From Bradyrhizobium sp. CCBAU 53340 (GTDB lineage: Bacteria > Pseudomonadota > Alphaproteobacteria > Rhizobiales > Xanthobacteraceae), in the NCBI RefSeq assembly GCF_015291645.1, contig NZ_CP030056.1, positions 372,001 to 436,000 on the forward strand: a DNA stretch of 64,000 nucleotides, read 5' to 3'. The position numbers and the translations under genes are program-made. Shown here piece by piece: positions 1 through 51,198 of this stretch. The notes under the pieces are model-generated. The model was not told the DNA's origin. It did not search any database and worked only from the letters and a program-made list of their open reading frames with translations. How positions within the stretch are numbered: the first letter of the stretch is position 1; each line of letters starts with the position of its first letter.

Positions 1-1285
1 GAAGCGCTCTTTGCCGTACGACCAGAGGCGTCAAAGCTTCGATGATTTCCACGGGCACACCGGCGACACCGCTTGGATAGGAGGTGGCCGAGAGGCCATC
101 GAGTCCCTTGAGGGCGCCAGTTCCGCCGGTAGAGAACCAAGTGTACGAGAAGAACTGATTGTCGCGCTTATCGAAGCCGCTGATATGCGTATTCCAGAGA
201 CTGTCGGCGCCGGGTGCCATCACCTTATCCGGCAGGATACCTGACAACGCGCCCATGATGGCTGAAGGGAGGAAGTGACCGACCGTATGACGGCCAGCGA
301 CGGCAGCAGGATGCTGAGCGTTGAGGATTGACCCGACGGCGGCGATCGTGCGTATCGGCGTGAACGAACCGGCGTTATTGGGCACGTCTGGCGCAATTGC
401 GCACTTCACGCCATAGGTGGTGTAAGCAACGGTATAATTGAAACCGACGTTGATACCGAGATCAACCGTTGAGGAAGACCCTTCATAGTCGACGATGACC
501 TCATCGTCCTTGATAGTGACCTTGGCCTGAATCTCGATCGGCTTGTCGAACCCGTCAATGGTGATCTTGAACGGATGCGATCCGTTGGGCAGAGCCGTAA
601 TGGCGGCTCTCATCGCCCTTTCGGTGCGCGCGACGATGGCGTCTGCCACCCCTTCGATATCCGCAAGATCGAACTCTTCGAGGAAAGACTTGAGCTGCTT
701 TGCTCCGACTTCGTTCGCGGTGATCTGTGCATGAATATCGCCAATCACTTCATCGGGGGTCCGCACGTTGGCCGCGATCAGCCGATAAACGGCTTCGACG
801 GGTTCTCCTTTCGAATGCAACTTCATGATCGGGATGAAGAGACCCTCCTCATAGACGGAGCGGGCATCACACGACAGCCCCCTGCCGCCGATATCGAGCG
901 CGTGACAGCAGTTTGCAAAAAGCGCAACGACTCGCCCATTGTGGAATACGGGCGTTGCAATCGTGATGTCGTGAAGCTGAGAGACCGTAATCCAAGGATC
1001 ATTCGTGATGATGACGTCCCCGGGCTGGAGCGTATCCAGCGGAAACGTCTTCAAGATGTGTTCCATTCCTGTCGCCATGGAATTGATGTGCCCCGGCGAG
1101 CCCGTGACCGATTGGGCCACCATCCGGCCGCGGCGATCGAACACGCACGCAGAAAGGTCTTCGGCGTCCCGGACGATGGACGTAAAGGACGAACGCATCA
1201 GGGCCGCGGCCTGCTCGTTCACGGCGGCAATGAGCCGCCCCCACATGATATCGAGCGTAATGGGGTCCAGTTCCTTGGCGCTCAT
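1..1285 (-). CDS. hyuB: HyuB: hydantoinase B/oxoprolinase family protein, 3' end outside window
   Basis: Reading the minus strand from the ATG at 1285 gives an open frame that stays open to the window edge (about 428 codons), so the C-terminus is missing. The protein starts MSAKELDPITLDIMWGRL, typical of the hydantoinase B/oxoprolinase B family. It continues with the family stretches GDVIITNDPW (about residue 90) and CAIAPDVPNNAGSF (about residue 285). The start overlaps the stop of hyuA by 4 bp (ATGA), so the two are translationally coupled and presumably form one enzyme. Family members act in ATP-dependent opening of hydantoin or 5-oxoproline rings, or in acetone/acetophenone carboxylation. 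The substrate cannot be read from sequence. Large open frames on the plus strand here are antisense shadows. Confidence 0.9.
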   Translation of the reverse strand, partial: MSAKELDPITLDIMWGRLIAAVNEQAAALMRSSFTSIVRDAEDLSACVFDRRGRMVAQSVTGSPGHINSMATGMEHILKTFPLDTLQPGDVIITNDPWITVSQLHDITIATPVFHNGRVVALFANCCHALDIGGRGLSCDARSVYEEGLFIPIMKLHSKGEPVEAVYRLIAANVRTPDEVIGDIHAQITANEVGAKQLKSFLEEFDLADIEGVADAIVARTERAMRAAITALPNGSHPFKITIDGFDKPIEIQAKVTIKDDEVIVDYEGSSSTVDLGINVGFNYTVAYTTYGVKCAIAPDVPNNAGSFTPIRTIAAVGSILNAQHPAAVAGRHTVGHFLPSAIMGALSGILPDKVMAPGADSLWNTHISGFDKRDNQFFSYTWFSTGGTGALKGLDGLSATSYPSGVAGVPVEIIEALTPLVVRQRAL

Positions 1286-5734: not shown

Positions 5735-6022
5735 TTATGGCTTGCCTTTCTTGGCTTTCGCCACAATGGCATCCAGATCGACGGCGGACTTCGGGGCGGC
5801 GTGGCCCGAGGAGAGATTGCTGTCTGCATCGAGCTTGATGCCGAGAGCATCAAGGACGCGAAGGATGAGCCCGAGTTCTGCGCGCTGGTGGCCATGCTCG
5901 ACTTCGATGATCCATTGGCGACTGACACCAACCTGTTTAGCTAGCGTCGACTGATCGAGCTTGAGGCGCTTGCGCCGGTCGCGGATGACGGCGCCAAGAT
6001 CGGCTGCGGTACGTGTGAGCAT
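5735..6022 (-). CDS. Orphan HipB-like XRE antitoxin
   Basis: A 95-residue protein with a canonical HTH: LGAVIRDRRKRLKLDQSTLA then KQVGVSRQWIIEVEHG (residues 9-45), followed by a short Lys/Ala tail. It resembles the small HipB/Y4mF antitoxins that precede HipA-type kinases. In such operons hipA lies directly downstream. Here the downstream side abuts, tail to tail, the truncated plus-strand hipA, so no partner remains. Four 18-bp inverted repeats lie upstream (6035-6128), suggesting that it still represses its own promoter. It differs in sequence from the HipB at 4444, so the two come from different systems. Confidence 0.85.
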   Translation of the reverse strand: MLTRTAADLGAVIRDRRKRLKLDQSTLAKQVGVSRQWIIEVEHGHQRAELGLILRVLDALGIKLDADSNLSSGHAAPKSAVDLDAIVAKAKKGKP

Positions 6023-46242: not shown

Positions 46243-47160
46243 ATGATCGAATTTGCACAAATTCGTGCCTTTGTTGCGGTTGCCGACGAGCTTCATTTCG
46301 GGCGAGCGGCCAAGCGCCTCAACATGACTCAGCCGCCACTCAGCCGGCACATCCAGATGCTCGAGCAACAGCTCGATGTGACGCTGCTTGAGCGAACGAG
46401 CCGGTCGGTTGAGCTGACCGTCGCTGGAAGGGCGTTTCTCTCTGAAGCGCGAGGGCTGCTTCAGCAACGGGAGAATGCGGTGAAGGCTGCGCGACAAGCA
46501 GCCTTATTGGCTGGTGGTGCCCTGACGATCGGCTTCGTGGGTGCTACAACTTACGGGTATTTGCCTTGGCTTGCCTCGTGCTTGCGCAGCGAACTACCGC
46601 ACATCGAAGCAAGCTTTGTCGAGCTGACCTCGCGCGAGCAGCTCGAAGCTCTCAAATCAGGGCAAATCGATTTCGGCTTGGTGCGCCCATTGCAGACGGC
46701 CGAGACGGTCAGAAGCGCATGCGTGTTCCGCGAGGAGCTGGCGCTCGCCCTGCCACTCGATCACCCGCTCGCGGGGCGGCGCCGGCCCGAGCTTGAGCAG
46801 CTCGATGGGCAACCCTTCATCATGTATTCGAGCGCTGGCCCCTACATGAACTCGCTGCTGACCATGGCGTTTGGAGCCGCCGGCATCCGGCCGAATGTCG
46901 TGCAGTCGATGAGCCAGGCACAAGCCATCCTCGCGCTGGTCAGCACGGGGTTGGGTCTTGCGATTGTTCCCGGAGAGACCCGCAATGCCTGCTTCGACAA
47001 TGTCGTGTTTCGGCCTATCCGCTTTGGGCGCTCTATCTTTGCTGAATTGCACGCCATCTGGAGAAGTGACAATCGCAATCCTGTTTTACCGCGCCTGCGC
47101 GAGCTTGCCTTTCGGGACGAGGGCAGCGGTGTCCGCCGGCCCTTGCAGCTGCAGCCCTAG
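46243..47160 (+). CDS. LysR-family regulator of the aldarate operon
   Basis: A 305-residue LysR protein. The HTH is MIEFAQIRAFVAVADELHFG then RAAKRLNMTQPPLSRHIQML (residues 1-40). The effector domain contains LTIGFVGATTYGYLPWLAS, SGQIDFGLVRPLQTAETVRS and LVSTGLGLAIVPGETRNACF. Divergent orientation next to the MFS transporter gene suggests that it activates that operon. A longer frame begins inside the MFS gene; the start is set at the ATG where LysR homology begins. Confidence 0.88.
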   Translation: MIEFAQIRAFVAVADELHFGRAAKRLNMTQPPLSRHIQMLEQQLDVTLLERTSRSVELTVAGRAFLSEARGLLQQRENAVKAARQAALLAGGALTIGFVGATTYGYLPWLASCLRSELPHIEASFVELTSREQLEALKSGQIDFGLVRPLQTAETVRSACVFREELALALPLDHPLAGRRRPELEQLDGQPFIMYSSAGPYMNSLLTMAFGAAGIRPNVVQSMSQAQAILALVSTGLGLAIVPGETRNACFDNVVFRPIRFGRSIFAELHAIWRSDNRNPVLPRLRELAFRDEGSGVRRPLQLQP

Positions 47161-47288
47161 AGGCCACTAACCAGAACGCGGACCCGGATTCGGTCCGCCA
47201 CCGCCGCCCTGGGGTGGCTCGTCGCTTACTTCTGCAATGATGTTAAATGGTTGACGAAAGGTCGTAGTGAAGGCCCTGCGTCACTTCG

Positions 47289-47403
47289 ATAAGATTTATC
47301 TTATTGTCAACCTTGTGTATTATAAGAAAAAGCTTATTACCGCGGGAAATATTAATATGGTATTCCTTATAGATTTATCAGCTCGTTATATGGTATATCT
47401 TAT
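47289..47403 (+). promoter_or_regulatory. Array of four operators with exact 33-bp period
   Basis: Four 16-bp sites of the form ATA(A/T)G-N6-CTTAT begin at 47289 (ATAAGATTTATCTTAT), 47322 (ATAAGAAAAAGCTTAT), 47355 (ATATGGTATTCCTTAT) and 47388 (ATATGGTATATCTTAT). Every start is 33 bp from the next, about three helical turns, so all sites face the same side of the DNA. The last ends 3 bp before the ATG of the HTH gene. Such phasing suits cooperative autorepression by that protein. Confidence 0.75.
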
Positions 47404-47406
47404 CGG

Positions 47407-47859
47407 ATGAAAGACGCTATCCGGCATCTCGACAGCCGCTTTGCCGCGCTCCGAGCGCTCTCGCACTCCCAGCGCCCTCCCAAGGGCTGGATTCGCGCGA
47501 TCCGCGACGCCCTCGGCATGACCACCGCCCAATATGCCAAGAGGCTGGGGGTTTCGCAGCCACGCATCGTGGAACTCGAAAAATCCGAGCAAGGCGGCAG
47601 CGTAACCCTCAATACGCTTCAACGCGCGGCCGAGGCCCTCGGCTGCAGGCTGGTCTATGTGCTTGTACCCGACCGCCCCCTCGCAGAAGTTGTAACCAAG
47701 CGAGCTGCTGAGGTCGCCGAGCGGCAATCACGAGCTATCGAGCAAACGATGCGGCTCGAGGACCAAGCGGTGGAGGACAATCAGGCTGCCCGCGCGCTTC
47801 GGGAACAAGCGATCGAGGATTTGTTGAAACGCCCCGCGCGCCTCTGGGACGACGAATGA
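47407..47859 (+). CDS. Mobile mystery protein A: HTH antitoxin-like regulator
   Basis: A 150-residue protein of the mobile mystery A family (TIGR02612 type). Conserved N-terminus HLDSRFAALRAL, then RPPKGWIRAIRDALGMTTAQ and the HTH YAKRLGVSQPRIVELEKSEQ, then GSVTLNTLQRAAEALGCRLV and YVLVP. The C-terminal half (about residues 95-150) is a charged helix, probably coiled coil. It is always paired with a Fic protein (family B), which it overlaps by 4 bp (ATGA). It likely represses through the array at 47289-47403 and restrains the Fic protein. Confidence 0.88.
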   Translation: MKDAIRHLDSRFAALRALSHSQRPPKGWIRAIRDALGMTTAQYAKRLGVSQPRIVELEKSEQGGSVTLNTLQRAAEALGCRLVYVLVPDRPLAEVVTKRAAEVAERQSRAIEQTMRLEDQAVEDNQAARALREQAIEDLLKRPARLWDDE

Positions 47860-48446
47860 CTGAGACTGATCTGCATGCCGCCGACGATCACGCGACACCG
47901 CTGACCCCTCAGGAGCGCGAAGATCTTATCCCAACGCACATTACCTTACGTAGCGAGTTGAACGAACTGGAGCAGCAGAACATCGCGACGGCAAACCGCT
48001 GGGCGTTTGGCCGCCGCAAGGTTCCGACGCGGGAAAGTTTTCTCAAGAGTTTGCATCGGCGCATGTTCGAACGCGTCTGGCGCTGGGCTGGAAAATTTCG
48101 AACGACGGAGCGCAATCTTGGTGTCGCGCCACATCTGATCGAAATTTCGCTGCATCAGGTGCTCGACGACGCAAGGTATTGGATTGAGAACAACACCTAT
48201 CCACCGGACGAACTTGCGGTTCGCTTCCATCACCGCCTCGTATCCGTACATCCGTTCCCAAACGGCAACGGTCGCTGGTCACGATTGGCTGCTGACTTGT
48301 TGATCGTGCAGCTTGGGGGCCGGCGCTTTACATGGGGCGCCGCCGGCTTGCAGACAGCCGGCACCGCACGCAGGGCCTACATTGCAGCGCTTCAGGCTGC
48401 CGACAACCATGATTTCGGGCCCCTCATCGCTTTCGCGCGATCATAA
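47856..48446 (+). CDS. Mobile mystery protein B: Fic-domain protein
   Basis: A 196-residue Fic-family protein. The N-terminal helices LTPQEREDLIPTHITLRSEL and NELEQQNIATANRWAFGRR lead to the Fic core: FLKSLHRRMFERVWRWAGKF then RTTERNLG, AVRFHHRLVSV, and the active motif HPFPNGNGRWSR (about residues 131-142). The acidic residue before GNGR in canonical AMP-transferring Fic enzymes (HPFx[D/E]GNGR) is Asn here. The ITLRSEL segment resembles, but does not match, the inhibitory (S/T)xxxE(G/N) motif. It probably modifies a protein with a nucleotide and acts as toxin of the pair. Confidence 0.88.
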   Translation: MTETDLHAADDHATPLTPQEREDLIPTHITLRSELNELEQQNIATANRWAFGRRKVPTRESFLKSLHRRMFERVWRWAGKFRTTERNLGVAPHLIEISLHQVLDDARYWIENNTYPPDELAVRFHHRLVSVHPFPNGNGRWSRLAADLLIVQLGGRRFTWGAAGLQTAGTARRAYIAALQAADNHDFGPLIAFARS

Positions 48447-48540
48447 AATGCCCGGCCCACCATCGGGCAAACCCTAACTAAACCAAGGCGCTTTCCTTAG
48501 CTAACTCGGTCTACGTCGGAATCAACAGCAGGGATCCGCA

Positions 48541-48672
48541 GATTTCGCCTGTAGAGCAGCCGTTCGAACGCATACTGTGTGAGCAAGAGATCGAAAGGCT
48601 CGTTACGCTGTTTGCAAGATTGAGCAGGCGGCCACGGATGGATGCTCCGACATTCGTCAGCGGCCTACGCAT
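48541..48672 (-). pseudogene. abiEii: Remnant of AbiEii nucleotidyltransferase toxin
   Basis: An ATG at 48672 overlaps the end of abiEi, the usual AbiEi/AbiEii layout. It reads MRRPLTNVGASIRGRLLNLA then NS, and after a frameshift NEPFDLLLTQYAFERLLYRR, matching AbiEii N-termini (pattern ASVRxRLLNLAxxxxxxFxLxLxRYAxERLLYRL). Similarity ends near 48541 and no nucleotidyltransferase core follows, so more than 80 percent of the toxin gene is missing. Intact AbiEii toxins are nucleotidyltransferases of type IV systems used in phage abortive infection. Confidence 0.72.
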
Positions 48673-49312
48673 TCAAGGTCAGCGTCTCAAGGCGCGGCTG
48701 AACGATTTTGTCCCATATGCCGGCTTCGGCGGCGTATTTTGCGATTTCGGAGGGTGTCGCTTTGCGCAGTCTGATCGCGTCTTTCATCGCTTGCGTGGCG
48801 TGCGCAAGGCCTGTGGGGACGTTGTAGAAGGCTTTTTGACGTTGGCCGCTCTTGAAGAGATCGACGATAGTTTTGGCCGGTGTGTAGATCGGTACCGAGA
48901 TCCCTTCGATGGTGTAATGCTTGATCCCCTTGTCAAACTCCTTGGGACCAAAGCGCGTAATTTGAATGCGAGGCCGCGCAATCTTGGGCCGCCAGTCGCG
49001 CGGACCGATCGCCATCCATACATAGGGCGGGATGCGGTCTGTCAGCTCATGGAAGGCGAGCGCAGACTCGTAACAGATGACGCCGTTTCGAATGAGTTTC
49101 GCAGCAACTGCGAGCGAGTGGTTACTGTCGAGCAGTGCATCGGGTAGCTGGTAAAGGCCGCGGCTGAGCTGATTGAGCGTGCCCTTCTGTTCCATTCGGG
49201 AAATGGTTGCGGCCGTGATCCCTTCCTGGAGAAATTCAGAAAGGCGCATCATGCCCCGCTTCTGAAGAAGCGAGATCGCCCTATCCCTCTGGCGTTGTGG
49301 TTGCTTCCTCAT
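48665..49312 (-). CDS. abiEi: AbiEi-type antitoxin/transcriptional regulator
   Basis: A 215-residue protein. The N-terminal winged HTH is RAISLLQKRGMMRLSEFLQE, GITAATISRMEQKG, then TLNQLSRGLYQLPDALLDSN (residues 10-62). The C-terminal antitoxin domain has RNGVICYESALAFHELTDRI, PPYVWMAIGPRDWRP and GISVPIYTPAKTIVDLFKSG. AbiEi proteins repress the abiE promoter and prevent toxicity of AbiEii. The ATG at 49312 is where family similarity begins; ATG 49324 is possible. A TTGACA (49343-49348) and TATCAT (49323-49328) on this strand may be the promoter, though 14 bp apart. Its toxin is broken, leaving an orphan antitoxin. Confidence 0.83.
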   Translation of the reverse strand: MRKQPQRQRDRAISLLQKRGMMRLSEFLQEGITAATISRMEQKGTLNQLSRGLYQLPDALLDSNHSLAVAAKLIRNGVICYESALAFHELTDRIPPYVWMAIGPRDWRPKIARPRIQITRFGPKEFDKGIKHYTIEGISVPIYTPAKTIVDLFKSGQRQKAFYNVPTGLAHATQAMKDAIRLRKATPSEIAKYAAEAGIWDKIVQPRLETLTLNA

Positions 49313-49545
49313 GGAAACCCGCATGATACAAAACCTTGCAAGTGTCAAGATTTTGCACAAGGAGTTATATCAATGCGACGTTCCCACAAGACAAATGCCT
49401 TTTTGAAACCAAGCACATAACCCCTCGCTTCACTGGCTCGGAATCTGCCCCTCCGGGTCTCACCATGTGGGCAACCCGGCTGGATGAGGCGCACCAAGCC
49501 TGCGACAGGCTGGATGGTCTCGTCTCGTGAACCTAAAATTGGGCC

Positions 49546-51198
49546 ATGTCTGAACACGAAGTCGAGTGGTCGCCGGAGCTGATCCATCCTAAGAATGTCG
49601 CCGGGACGGCGCTTCTGGGAAAGGCCTGCGATATTCTCGAGCTGATCGGCAGATCACCCGGCGTCCTCGACCAGGCGCGTCTTGCGGACCAGACGGGCAT
49701 CCCCAGGGCGACCCTGTATCGCATCCTTGCGGCGCTGATCTCGCGTGGACTGATCCGGGCAGATCCGCGCACCCAGGCCTACACGCTTGGTTTCAACTTT
49801 CTCGATCTTGCACAGAATGCTTGGTCGTCGTCTGACCTTGCGTCAATTGCGTCCGTAGAGTTGAGGCGCTTACGCGATTTGACCGGTGAGACCGCCTATC
49901 TCGCGGTTCAAGACGGTCACCACGTGCTCTCGCTCGGCCGCTTCGAGAGCGCACATTCCGAGCGATCCAATGCGAGGCTCGGCGCGCTTAAACCGATGCA
50001 TTGCACAAGCCAGGGCAAGGCGATCCTCGCTCATCTCTCCGACGCGCAACTCGACTTGGTGGTCCGCGACGGGCTTGCCAAGTTTACCGAGAAGACGATT
50101 TGTGACGGCGAGCAGTTGAAGGCACATCTGGCCATCGTCCGTGCGCGCGGCTATGCGATCGATGACGAAGAGATAGTTCTCGGCACCCGCTGCGTCGGAA
50201 CGGCTATTCTCGATCCCGCCGGCAAACCGCTTGCGGCCATCAGCGTGGCCGGCCCGACTTTTCGCATCACCGCCGAGCGCGCCGAACGATTAGGGCAAGA
50301 GCTCGTTGATGTCGCAAGACGGATTTCGAGCCTGCTCGCACCTGCCATCAAGAGCGCTCGGCATGATCCGGGAAATTACAAGGTCTGGACGAAGAGCACA
50401 GCCTTTGTGGGCGCGGCGCCGCGCTGGGATGCGCGCGCGCAGAACTTGGTTTGGGCCGACCTGTTGGCGCCTGCTATCCGCGCCGACGGCGGGCATCCCT
50501 TCACCGTCTCGCTGCAGGCGCTCTCTGAGGGCATCAACTCGCTGTGCCTTGTCGAGGGCGGCGTCGCCTATTCAGTTGGCCATGACATCGTGATCGACAA
50601 TTTATCGGGCGGCCAGGAGCGCATTGAAGGAAAGCCGGGTATTTCCTTCAAAGTGCTGCGCGTCTCGGAGGCTGGTGAGATCTGGGCAGCAGCCTACAGC
50701 GCCGAGGCCAACATAAGCCTGGTTGGACCGTGGCGACGGCAATCGGGGATGGAACCGGTGTTCGAAGTGCAAGGCCAGGTGAGCGACATCGCCTTTTGCG
50801 GTGATGCCGGCCTGTTCGCGACGGAGCCATCGCGTCAATGCGTCTATCTGCTTGAGCGAAAGGCGGCGCGAAAGCGAAAATTCGCCGATATTCCGAAGGT
50901 CGCGGGCGCTCCTTGCGCCCTCGCCGTCGACGAGCAATTTAACCCATGGGTTGGATTGTCGGACGGCTGGAGCGTCGTGAAGCTTAATGAGAGCGGAGAG
51001 ATTGAGCGAACCGTCGCCCTCCCCGTGCCAAGACCAACCGGTATCGCGTTTGGAGGAGCCTCCCTGTCCGAGCTCTTCGTGACCAGTGCCCGCACCGGCC
51101 TGTCGCGCGAAAGCCTCGCCAATGCTCCTCTTTCGGGACACCTCCTGTCGATCGATGTCGGCGAGCGCGGCCTCGCCGATCCAGTCGCAAGGCTTTGA
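49546..51198 (+). CDS. IclR regulator fused to an SMP-30/gluconolactonase-like domain
   Basis: A 550-residue fusion. Residues 1-270 are a complete IclR protein: HTH ILELIGRSPGVLDQARLADQ and TGIPRATLYRILAALISRGL; effector domain with LRDLTGETAYLAVQDGHHVL, LKPMHCTSQGKAILAHL and GYAIDDEEIVLGTRCVGTAI. Residues 280-550 are a beta-propeller like SMP-30/gluconolactonases: RWDARAQNLVWADLLAPAIR, AGAPCALAVDEQFNPWVGLS, PVPRPTGIAFGGASLSELFV and TSARTGLSRESLA. The propeller may be an effector sensor or a true lactonase. It overlaps the downstream enolase-superfamily gene by 4 bp (TTGA), tying it to this operon. Confidence 0.87.
   Translation: MSEHEVEWSPELIHPKNVAGTALLGKACDILELIGRSPGVLDQARLADQTGIPRATLYRILAALISRGLIRADPRTQAYTLGFNFLDLAQNAWSSSDLASIASVELRRLRDLTGETAYLAVQDGHHVLSLGRFESAHSERSNARLGALKPMHCTSQGKAILAHLSDAQLDLVVRDGLAKFTEKTICDGEQLKAHLAIVRARGYAIDDEEIVLGTRCVGTAILDPAGKPLAAISVAGPTFRITAERAERLGQELVDVARRISSLLAPAIKSARHDPGNYKVWTKSTAFVGAAPRWDARAQNLVWADLLAPAIRADGGHPFTVSLQALSEGINSLCLVEGGVAYSVGHDIVIDNLSGGQERIEGKPGISFKVLRVSEAGEIWAAAYSAEANISLVGPWRRQSGMEPVFEVQGQVSDIAFCGDAGLFATEPSRQCVYLLERKAARKRKFADIPKVAGAPCALAVDEQFNPWVGLSDGWSVVKLNESGEIERTVALPVPRPTGIAFGGASLSELFVTSARTGLSRESLANAPLSGHLLSIDVGERGLADPVARL

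Follow-up and report, generated by a model that had tools for sequence, protein, structure and literature searches.

Putative MobA operator arrays with a conserved 33- or 32-bp step in the mobile mystery A family

The mobA–mobB locus and its palindromes

The window analysed here is a stretch of 64,000 nucleotides from Bradyrhizobium sp. CCBAU 53340 (contig NZ_CP030056.1, positions 372,001 to 436,000), in which a gene for a mobile mystery protein A (mobA) is preceded by four regularly spaced palindromes and followed by a gene for a Fic-domain protein (mobB), with a 4-bp overlap between the end of mobA and the start of mobB (Table 1). Both proteins score above the curated cut-offs of their families, MobA with 164.3 bits against TIGR02612 (cut-off 122.6) and MobB with 263.2 bits against TIGR02613 (cut-off 124.4), and are therefore members of them; a first-pass annotation made from the sequence alone had named the genes as a mobile mystery A/Fic pair. 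MobA also contains the HTH_3 or lambda-repressor-like DNA-binding domain (PF01381, 38.7 bits). The contig has 982 kb, and the region 47170–47860 of the window matches five Bradyrhizobium plasmids of 979–982 kb at 99.9–100% identity, among them NZ_CP030058.1 of B. guangdongense.

The palindrome ATAWG-N6-CTTAT (ATAWGNNNNNNCTTAT) occurs on the + strand of the window at four sites with start-to-start steps of 33, 33 and 33 bp, the last one ending at 47403, 3 bp from the mobA ATG at 47407. These are exactly the four sites that had been described at the outset. Since the sites starting at 47289 and 47322 match on the − strand too, there are 6 strand-wise matches in the 64 kb, far beyond chance, as 100 shuffles gave 0.04 on average. 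The rest of the 8.44-Mb genome contains the pattern at just four places, which do not adjoin one another, and a regulon elsewhere in the genome was rejected as these occurrences are scattered and unclustered. As a working definition, we consider as a mobA operator array at least three palindromes at a uniform step of 32 or 33 bp upstream of mobA. The window locus (L001) has four, with a score of 45.8 at period 33 in the uniform-step palindrome search (see below). By its sequence, the window array is real and functional-looking, and appears as one instance of a family-wide design.

Table 1. Positions in the window of the candidate operators, mobA, mobB and the codons of the residues that best predict the half-sites.
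Feature	Position	Strand	Basis
Operator 1 (putative), ATAAGATTTATCTTAT	47289..47304		Pattern search and register in the uniform-step search (L001)
Operator 2 (putative), ATAAGAAAAAGCTTAT	47322..47337		Pattern search and uniform-step search
Operator 3 (putative), ATATGGTATTCCTTAT, left half ATATG	47355..47370		Pattern search and uniform-step search
Operator 4 (putative), ATATGGTATATCTTAT, 3 bp 5' of the mobA ATG	47388..47403		Pattern search and uniform-step search
mobA, mobile mystery protein A, HTH_3 protein of 150 amino acids, proposed autorepressor/antitoxin	47407..47859	+	TIGR02612, PF01381, model mb00b24995629
Codons of MobA residues 50–56 (SQPRIVE), best half-site-predicting 7-residue window	47554..47574	+	Residue covariation; predicted helix 51–63
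mobB, Fic-domain protein (HPFPNGNGRWSR)	47856..48446	+	TIGR02613, PF02661, list of open reading frames

Constant step and changing half-sites across the family

A total of 146 mobA loci were gathered: 80 from genome contigs (the top-ranking ones among 542 confirmed relatives, which biases the set towards strong matches), four from viral contigs and the rest from whole-genome searches together with two plasmid records. At least 150 bp of upstream DNA were available in 139 (the other seven lacked either this length or a start), and 121 non-redundant loci remained after dropping 18 near-duplicates. Four partial loci below the family cut-off (L136, L138, L139, and L141) and the duplicates L019 and L167 were left out, L137 and L140, also under the cut-off, and other lower-scoring matches were included, and two matches over the cut-off have no locus. 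The mobA start was assigned by script to the ATG closest to the conserved GW among those lying 48 nt or more ahead of it.

A spacing signal is evident in these 121 upstream regions even with no motif assumed, as the mean self-match excess reaches 0.106 at lag 33 (t 14.5) and 0.062 at lag 66 (t 8.0), with 0.024 at lag 32 and −0.004 at lag 34. The lag-33 value is 0.000 in the pooled upstream regions of 39 other helix-turn-helix (HTH) genes (those with enough upstream DNA among 41 typed loci, near-duplicates retained). We have also searched for palindromes repeated at a uniform step, allowing all values of 28–38 bp, with the 99th percentile of 1452 dinucleotide shuffles as threshold. Arrays above it were found in 89 of the 121 loci, with a best period of 33 bp in 74 and of 32 bp in 15, and at no other step. 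The search for 33-bp phasing before other mobA genes, proposed as a check in the first-pass annotation, was thus positive in most loci, whereas the motif ATAWG...CTTAT proved to be confined to some branches and is not the family consensus. Most arrays have three (39 loci) or four (45) consecutive sites, five being found in the remaining five. When each site was left out and searched for again at distances of 20–47 bp, it was recovered at 33 bp in 240 of 296 cases, at 32 in 54 and at 31 in two, a test that is partly circular because the sites derive from a uniform-step search. Period-33 arrays appear too in metagenome-assembled genomes labelled as Cyanobacteria (L064), Calditrichia (L083), Gastranaerophilales (L088), and Sulfopaludibacter (L117), labels that can be wrong in such genomes. 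As a hold-out we used 12 plasmid loci, hand-picked from the 60 records listed out of 238 (Agrobacterium plasmids excluded), and eight were above the threshold, all of them at 32 or 33 bp. One of those that did not pass, L203, is a near-duplicate of L039 of the first set.

In an ungapped comparison of six Bradyrhizobium orthologues the site columns were 62–89% identical and the spacers 29–67%, the site figures being lowered for L044 and L150 because only three sites were called in each. Within loci (89 loci, 148 pairs), spacers match one another at 0.334, near the 0.321 expected from composition, so that the feature kept is the length of the spacer and not its sequence. Array spacing is more conserved than site sequence in the mobile mystery A family. 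Exact spacing over up to five copies could also be seen as the relic of a tandem duplication, or as an iteron-like or CRISPR-like (clustered regularly interspaced short palindromic repeats) element devoid of operator function. We consider such an origin very improbable, as the similarity among spacers of one locus does not exceed chance, which is unlike recent duplications, the palindromes change from locus to locus at a constant spacing, and the array sits at the mobA start in most loci.

The half-sites fall into several groups (ATAAG, ATAAC/T, ATAGG, ATCAG, ATCAC, GATCG, GTCAA, GGATA, and others), which go with residues 51–53 of MobA. QPR at these residues is accompanied by ATAA-type half-sites in 31 of 36 loci, PQS or PQT by ATCAG-type ones in five of five, KQR by (G)ACAA or TCAA in three of three and RAR by GATAT/GATAC in four of seven, while QST is found with mixed half-sites (ATCGA in two of four). 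The pairs of residue and half-site position with the highest Z of mutual information are 52-3, 51-2, 71-3, 52-4, and 51-3; residue 53 pairs with position 5, and G at position 6 is associated with Glu56 (24/2/9/49, Fisher p 1.4e-11; 89 loci minus five without a consensus base). A helix is predicted at 51–63 in the model of the MobA monomer (mb00b24995629), built from 94 of 120 aligned proteins, with a predicted local distance difference test (pLDDT) value of 82.7 and a predicted template modelling (pTM) score of 0.58.

Relatedness among the proteins was taken into account in two ways. In a sliding-window test, where 7-residue windows of MobA were correlated with half-site distance given the rest of the protein, the window 50–56 was the first of 144, with a partial correlation of 0.537 (median 0.029, 90th percentile 0.243). 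Secondly, we looked at remote pairs, less than 45% identical outside residues 39–62 but sharing at least five of the seven residues 50–56, which were available for 46 loci. Their operator similarity was 0.77 versus 0.50, and their operators were more alike than those of equally distant loci in 45 of the 46 (16 of 18 with identity under 40%, 51 of 55 under 50%; no pairs were available below 35% identity). A companion window scan ranked 46–52 first (0.193) and 50–56 second (0.190), with a median of 0.045. As half-sites differ between loci and follow the HTH of MobA, residues 50–56 above all, the repeats are most likely operators of the adjacent MobA. The same assignment, put forward for the window alone, is strongly supported by the conservation of arrays over the family together with this covariation. 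One could also think of sites for another regulator, e.g., the product of the LysR-type gene whose end lies about 130 bp before the first window site, or for a host factor. We regard this as a very distant candidate, since arrays accompany mobA in other neighbourhoods (e.g., L038, L209, and L211) and half-sites track the HTH of MobA better than other parts of the protein.

A model of repression and the origin of the step

Overall, we propose that the four repeats are MobA operators and that dimers bound side by side over the promoter and start codon repress the mobA–mobB operon, a reading to which we assign a probability of about 0.82. Each palindrome would be read by a MobA dimer via its recognition helices, and dimers on adjacent sites, 33 bp from centre to centre, would occupy about 115 bp ahead of mobA as far as the start codon, presumably with the promoter included. 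The filled array would repress the operon, and loss of MobA, e.g., by proteolysis under stress, would lead to derepression; MobA might besides neutralise its Fic partner MobB. We infer all of this (binding, dimerisation, repression, cooperativity, filament formation, and Fic neutralisation) from patterns in the sequences. In Mesorhizobium loti, mll2066 (labelled mobile mystery protein b) is among the 50 top heat-shock M-values, with M 4.02 (PMC3989490), and this rise would be consistent with derepression if that operon has an array as well.

The location of the arrays is in keeping with such a role. The last called site lies 0–5 bp before the ATG in 46 of the 89 arrays and overlaps it in eight more. 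TTGAC is present within 150 bp in 31 of the 89 loci (39 elements), with preferred phases in the operator register (nine at +4, nine at +7 and nine at +15/+16), and several loci have a −10-like hexamer about −13 to −16 or −39 to −41 relative to the ATG, where it falls on an operator or touches its border. Because of these hexamers and of the closeness of the last sites to the ATG, a filled array would lie over the start and the probable promoter region.

Several observations weigh against the reading as a whole. There are 32 of the 121 loci below the array threshold, and four of the 12 hold-outs were negative, namely Euzebya, the member of the Actinomycetota, and three Pseudomonadota loci. The distance from the last called site to the ATG downstream of it exceeds 5 bp in 35 of the 89 arrays, and a consensus scan found no sigma-70-type promoter in 47150–48600; given this empty scan and the several registers of TTGAC across loci, the promoter of the window has not been placed. 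Some lag-33 excess is also seen in controls inside the gene (0.038) and far upstream (0.021), together with comparable or higher ones at several further multiples of 3, which we ascribe to codon periodicity and, for the in-gene control, also to conserved motifs of the protein. One orthologue, L043, has five sites with gaps of 33, 33, 30, and 33 bp; its upstream region is a natural spacing variant. Residues outside the recognition helix (71, 40, 23, and 78) are also high in the mutual-information table. Finally, a tree-aware pair test of Glu56 versus G6 had two usable pairs and a median p of 0.5, other residue tests being no better, and with so few independent pairs, the control for common descent comes only from the sliding-window test and the remote pairs.

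A constant step with free spacer sequence points to contact between neighbouring dimers, either direct or via MobB, or to a constraint from the promoter. We lean towards direct contact between MobA dimers, rank contact through MobB second and the promoter third. In the last case MobA would bind the sites, but the geometry of RNA polymerase, with −35 and −10 elements over adjacent operators, would mainly set the period, and no contact between dimers would be needed. The preferred TTGAC phases and the −10-like hexamers speak for it; however, no fewer than three phases occur, TTGAC is missing from the 150 bp in 58 of the 89 arrays, and the period reaches beyond one promoter, with four or five consecutive sites in 50 of the 89 arrays, so we consider it improbable as the main cause.

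Bridging by MobB, with repression set by the toxin to antitoxin ratio (conditional cooperativity) as in Phd-Doc, would suit the presence of a Fic motif directly downstream of mobA in 108 of the 121 loci. The Fic-fold toxin Doc can bridge Phd dimers (PMC4803016). Of the 13 loci without the motif, three have less than 500 bases of downstream DNA, and arrays are kept at L070, L073, and L080 with no recognisable Fic motif on ample downstream DNA, which argues against MobB as the bridge, with the limit that the partner may be degenerate or elsewhere. We hold bridging by MobB to be unlikely. The idea of orphan mobA genes was dropped, as many loci initially classed as lacking MobB proved to carry variant Fic motifs.

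Returning to direct contact between MobA dimers, the helical geometry of the array has some consequences for its shape. The first-pass annotation had equated 33 bp with about three helical turns (3.14 turns at 10.5 bp per turn), and had placed all sites on one DNA face, which is only approximate, because each step adds a rotation of about 51 degrees. Sites 1 and 4 would not lie exactly on the same face of relaxed B-DNA, and a MobA assembly would wind round the DNA and not lie along one face. The cooperative filament suggested there would be compatible with the constant spacing, while the DNA loop over the mobA promoter, offered as its alternative, found no support here. Going one step further, MobA may act as a molecular ruler, its dimers polymerising on DNA at a fixed step of 33 bp (32 in some branches) while the recognised sequence has been rewritten many times via residues 50–56; the length of the array (three to five dimers) would then set a switch-like derepression of Fic. 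This we put forward tentatively, at slightly less than even odds.

The arrays offer a predicted binding site for each mobile mystery A member in which one can be read, a testable role of MobA as autorepressor, and the prediction of dimers touching at a fixed step. The recognition-helix residues paired with half-site bases over 89 loci are a natural data set for the protein–DNA recognition code, and the array can be used to find or annotate mobA–mobB modules. If the ruler proposal is true, the family members would together form a natural collection in which the specificities of HTH proteins for their operators can be read against a constant scaffold.

Some other genes of the window deserve a mention. 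At 48665–49360 (−), a 231-amino-acid open reading frame has an AbiEi-type antitoxin domain (PF13338, E 1.8e-7), and no open reading frame of 60 or more amino acids is listed on that strand in the interval from the mobB end to this one, the expected place of AbiEii. A Y4mF/couple_hipB-type antitoxin gene is found at 5735–6022 (−; TIGR03070, 74.8 bits, cut-off 71.65). The open reading frame at 49546–51198 (+, 550 amino acids) has an IclR regulator (PF09339, PF01614) fused to a C-terminal SMP-30/gluconolactonase domain (PF08450), i.e., a regulator joined to a possible enzyme or sensor domain.

Comparison with known systems

The hipBA operon resembles the arrangement proposed here in having four operators before the gene of an HTH antitoxin, with repression as suggested for MobA. 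We placed the E. coli K-12 sites with TATCC-N8-GGATA, which we take to be the hipBA operator consensus, and those matching it are 28, 39, and 28 bp apart, an uneven spacing in contrast to the uniform 33 or 32 bp of mobA arrays; the half-site differs as well. MobA shares with HipB the HTH_3 or lambda-repressor-like domain (PF01381), and the fold matches of its model include 2wiu and 4yg1, near-tied with many HTH domains and barely covering the C-terminal helices 92–141. However, MobA of the window reaches only 32.6 bits against TIGR03070 (couple_hipB), below the cut-off of 71.65, and its partner is a Fic protein (TIGR02613/PF02661) and not the kinase HipA.

PaaR2 of paaR2-paaA2-parE2 (prophage CP-933P) octamerises (PMC8630535), but it differs from MobA in the surrounding region, which is lambda-like and has YdaS as opposed repressor as well as additional pseudosymmetrical operators, and in its ParE toxin. 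Phd-Doc of phage P1 is closer in that a Fic-fold toxin and a DNA-binding antitoxin share one autoregulated operon (PMC4803016), although the antitoxin has a Phd/YefM fold and MobA an HTH_3 domain.

Class I FicTA modules (VbhTA and EcFicTA) have a small antitoxin gene before the Fic gene, an order found in the window too, where the antitoxin role of MobA is putative; across the family, the Fic ATG is at −4 in 60 of the 108 loci with a Fic motif. In these modules a Glu of the [S/T]xxxE[G/N] inhibition motif, in a helix, contacts the Fic Arg (PMC5033356). Glu118 of MobA recalls this residue, being invariant in 120 rows together with Met115 and Gln120, and with Thr/Ser114 the stretch 113–121 is similar to the motif, but the full motif is found in only 26 of the 120 and is absent from MobA of the window, where residues 114–119 (TMRLED) have the S/T and the E and lack the G/N. 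Unlike Class I FicTA antitoxins, MobA carries an HTH domain. The Fic core may set MobB apart as well: the AMPylating core is HPFx[D/E]GN[G/K]R (PMC2686095), and the window sequence HPFPNGNGR does not match it, having Asn in place of D/E. The same Asn was seen in all 108 motif matches of the family set, in a search that allowed Asp, and the chemistry of MobB may therefore be different from that of AMPylating Fic enzymes.

Genes of this kind have been paired before, with 22 cases of Fic_Doc with an xre neighbour in one survey (PMC2701414) and, in Geobacter sulfurreducens, a cas locus where Fic is found next to a TIGR02612-like antitoxin (PMC3936711); operators are unmentioned in the relevant passages of these two papers. 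Similarly, the passages on the family in open-licence papers (PMC3989490, PMC4750851, PMC4725956, and PMC3936711) contain no operator for mobile mystery A, and searches of that literature for a 33-bp spacing yielded no paper, in agreement with the earlier impression that none had been described. Putative toxin–antitoxin operons whose HTH autorepressor has several operators are already known as a kind; the new part is the 33- or 32-bp grid with changing half-sites matched to the helix.
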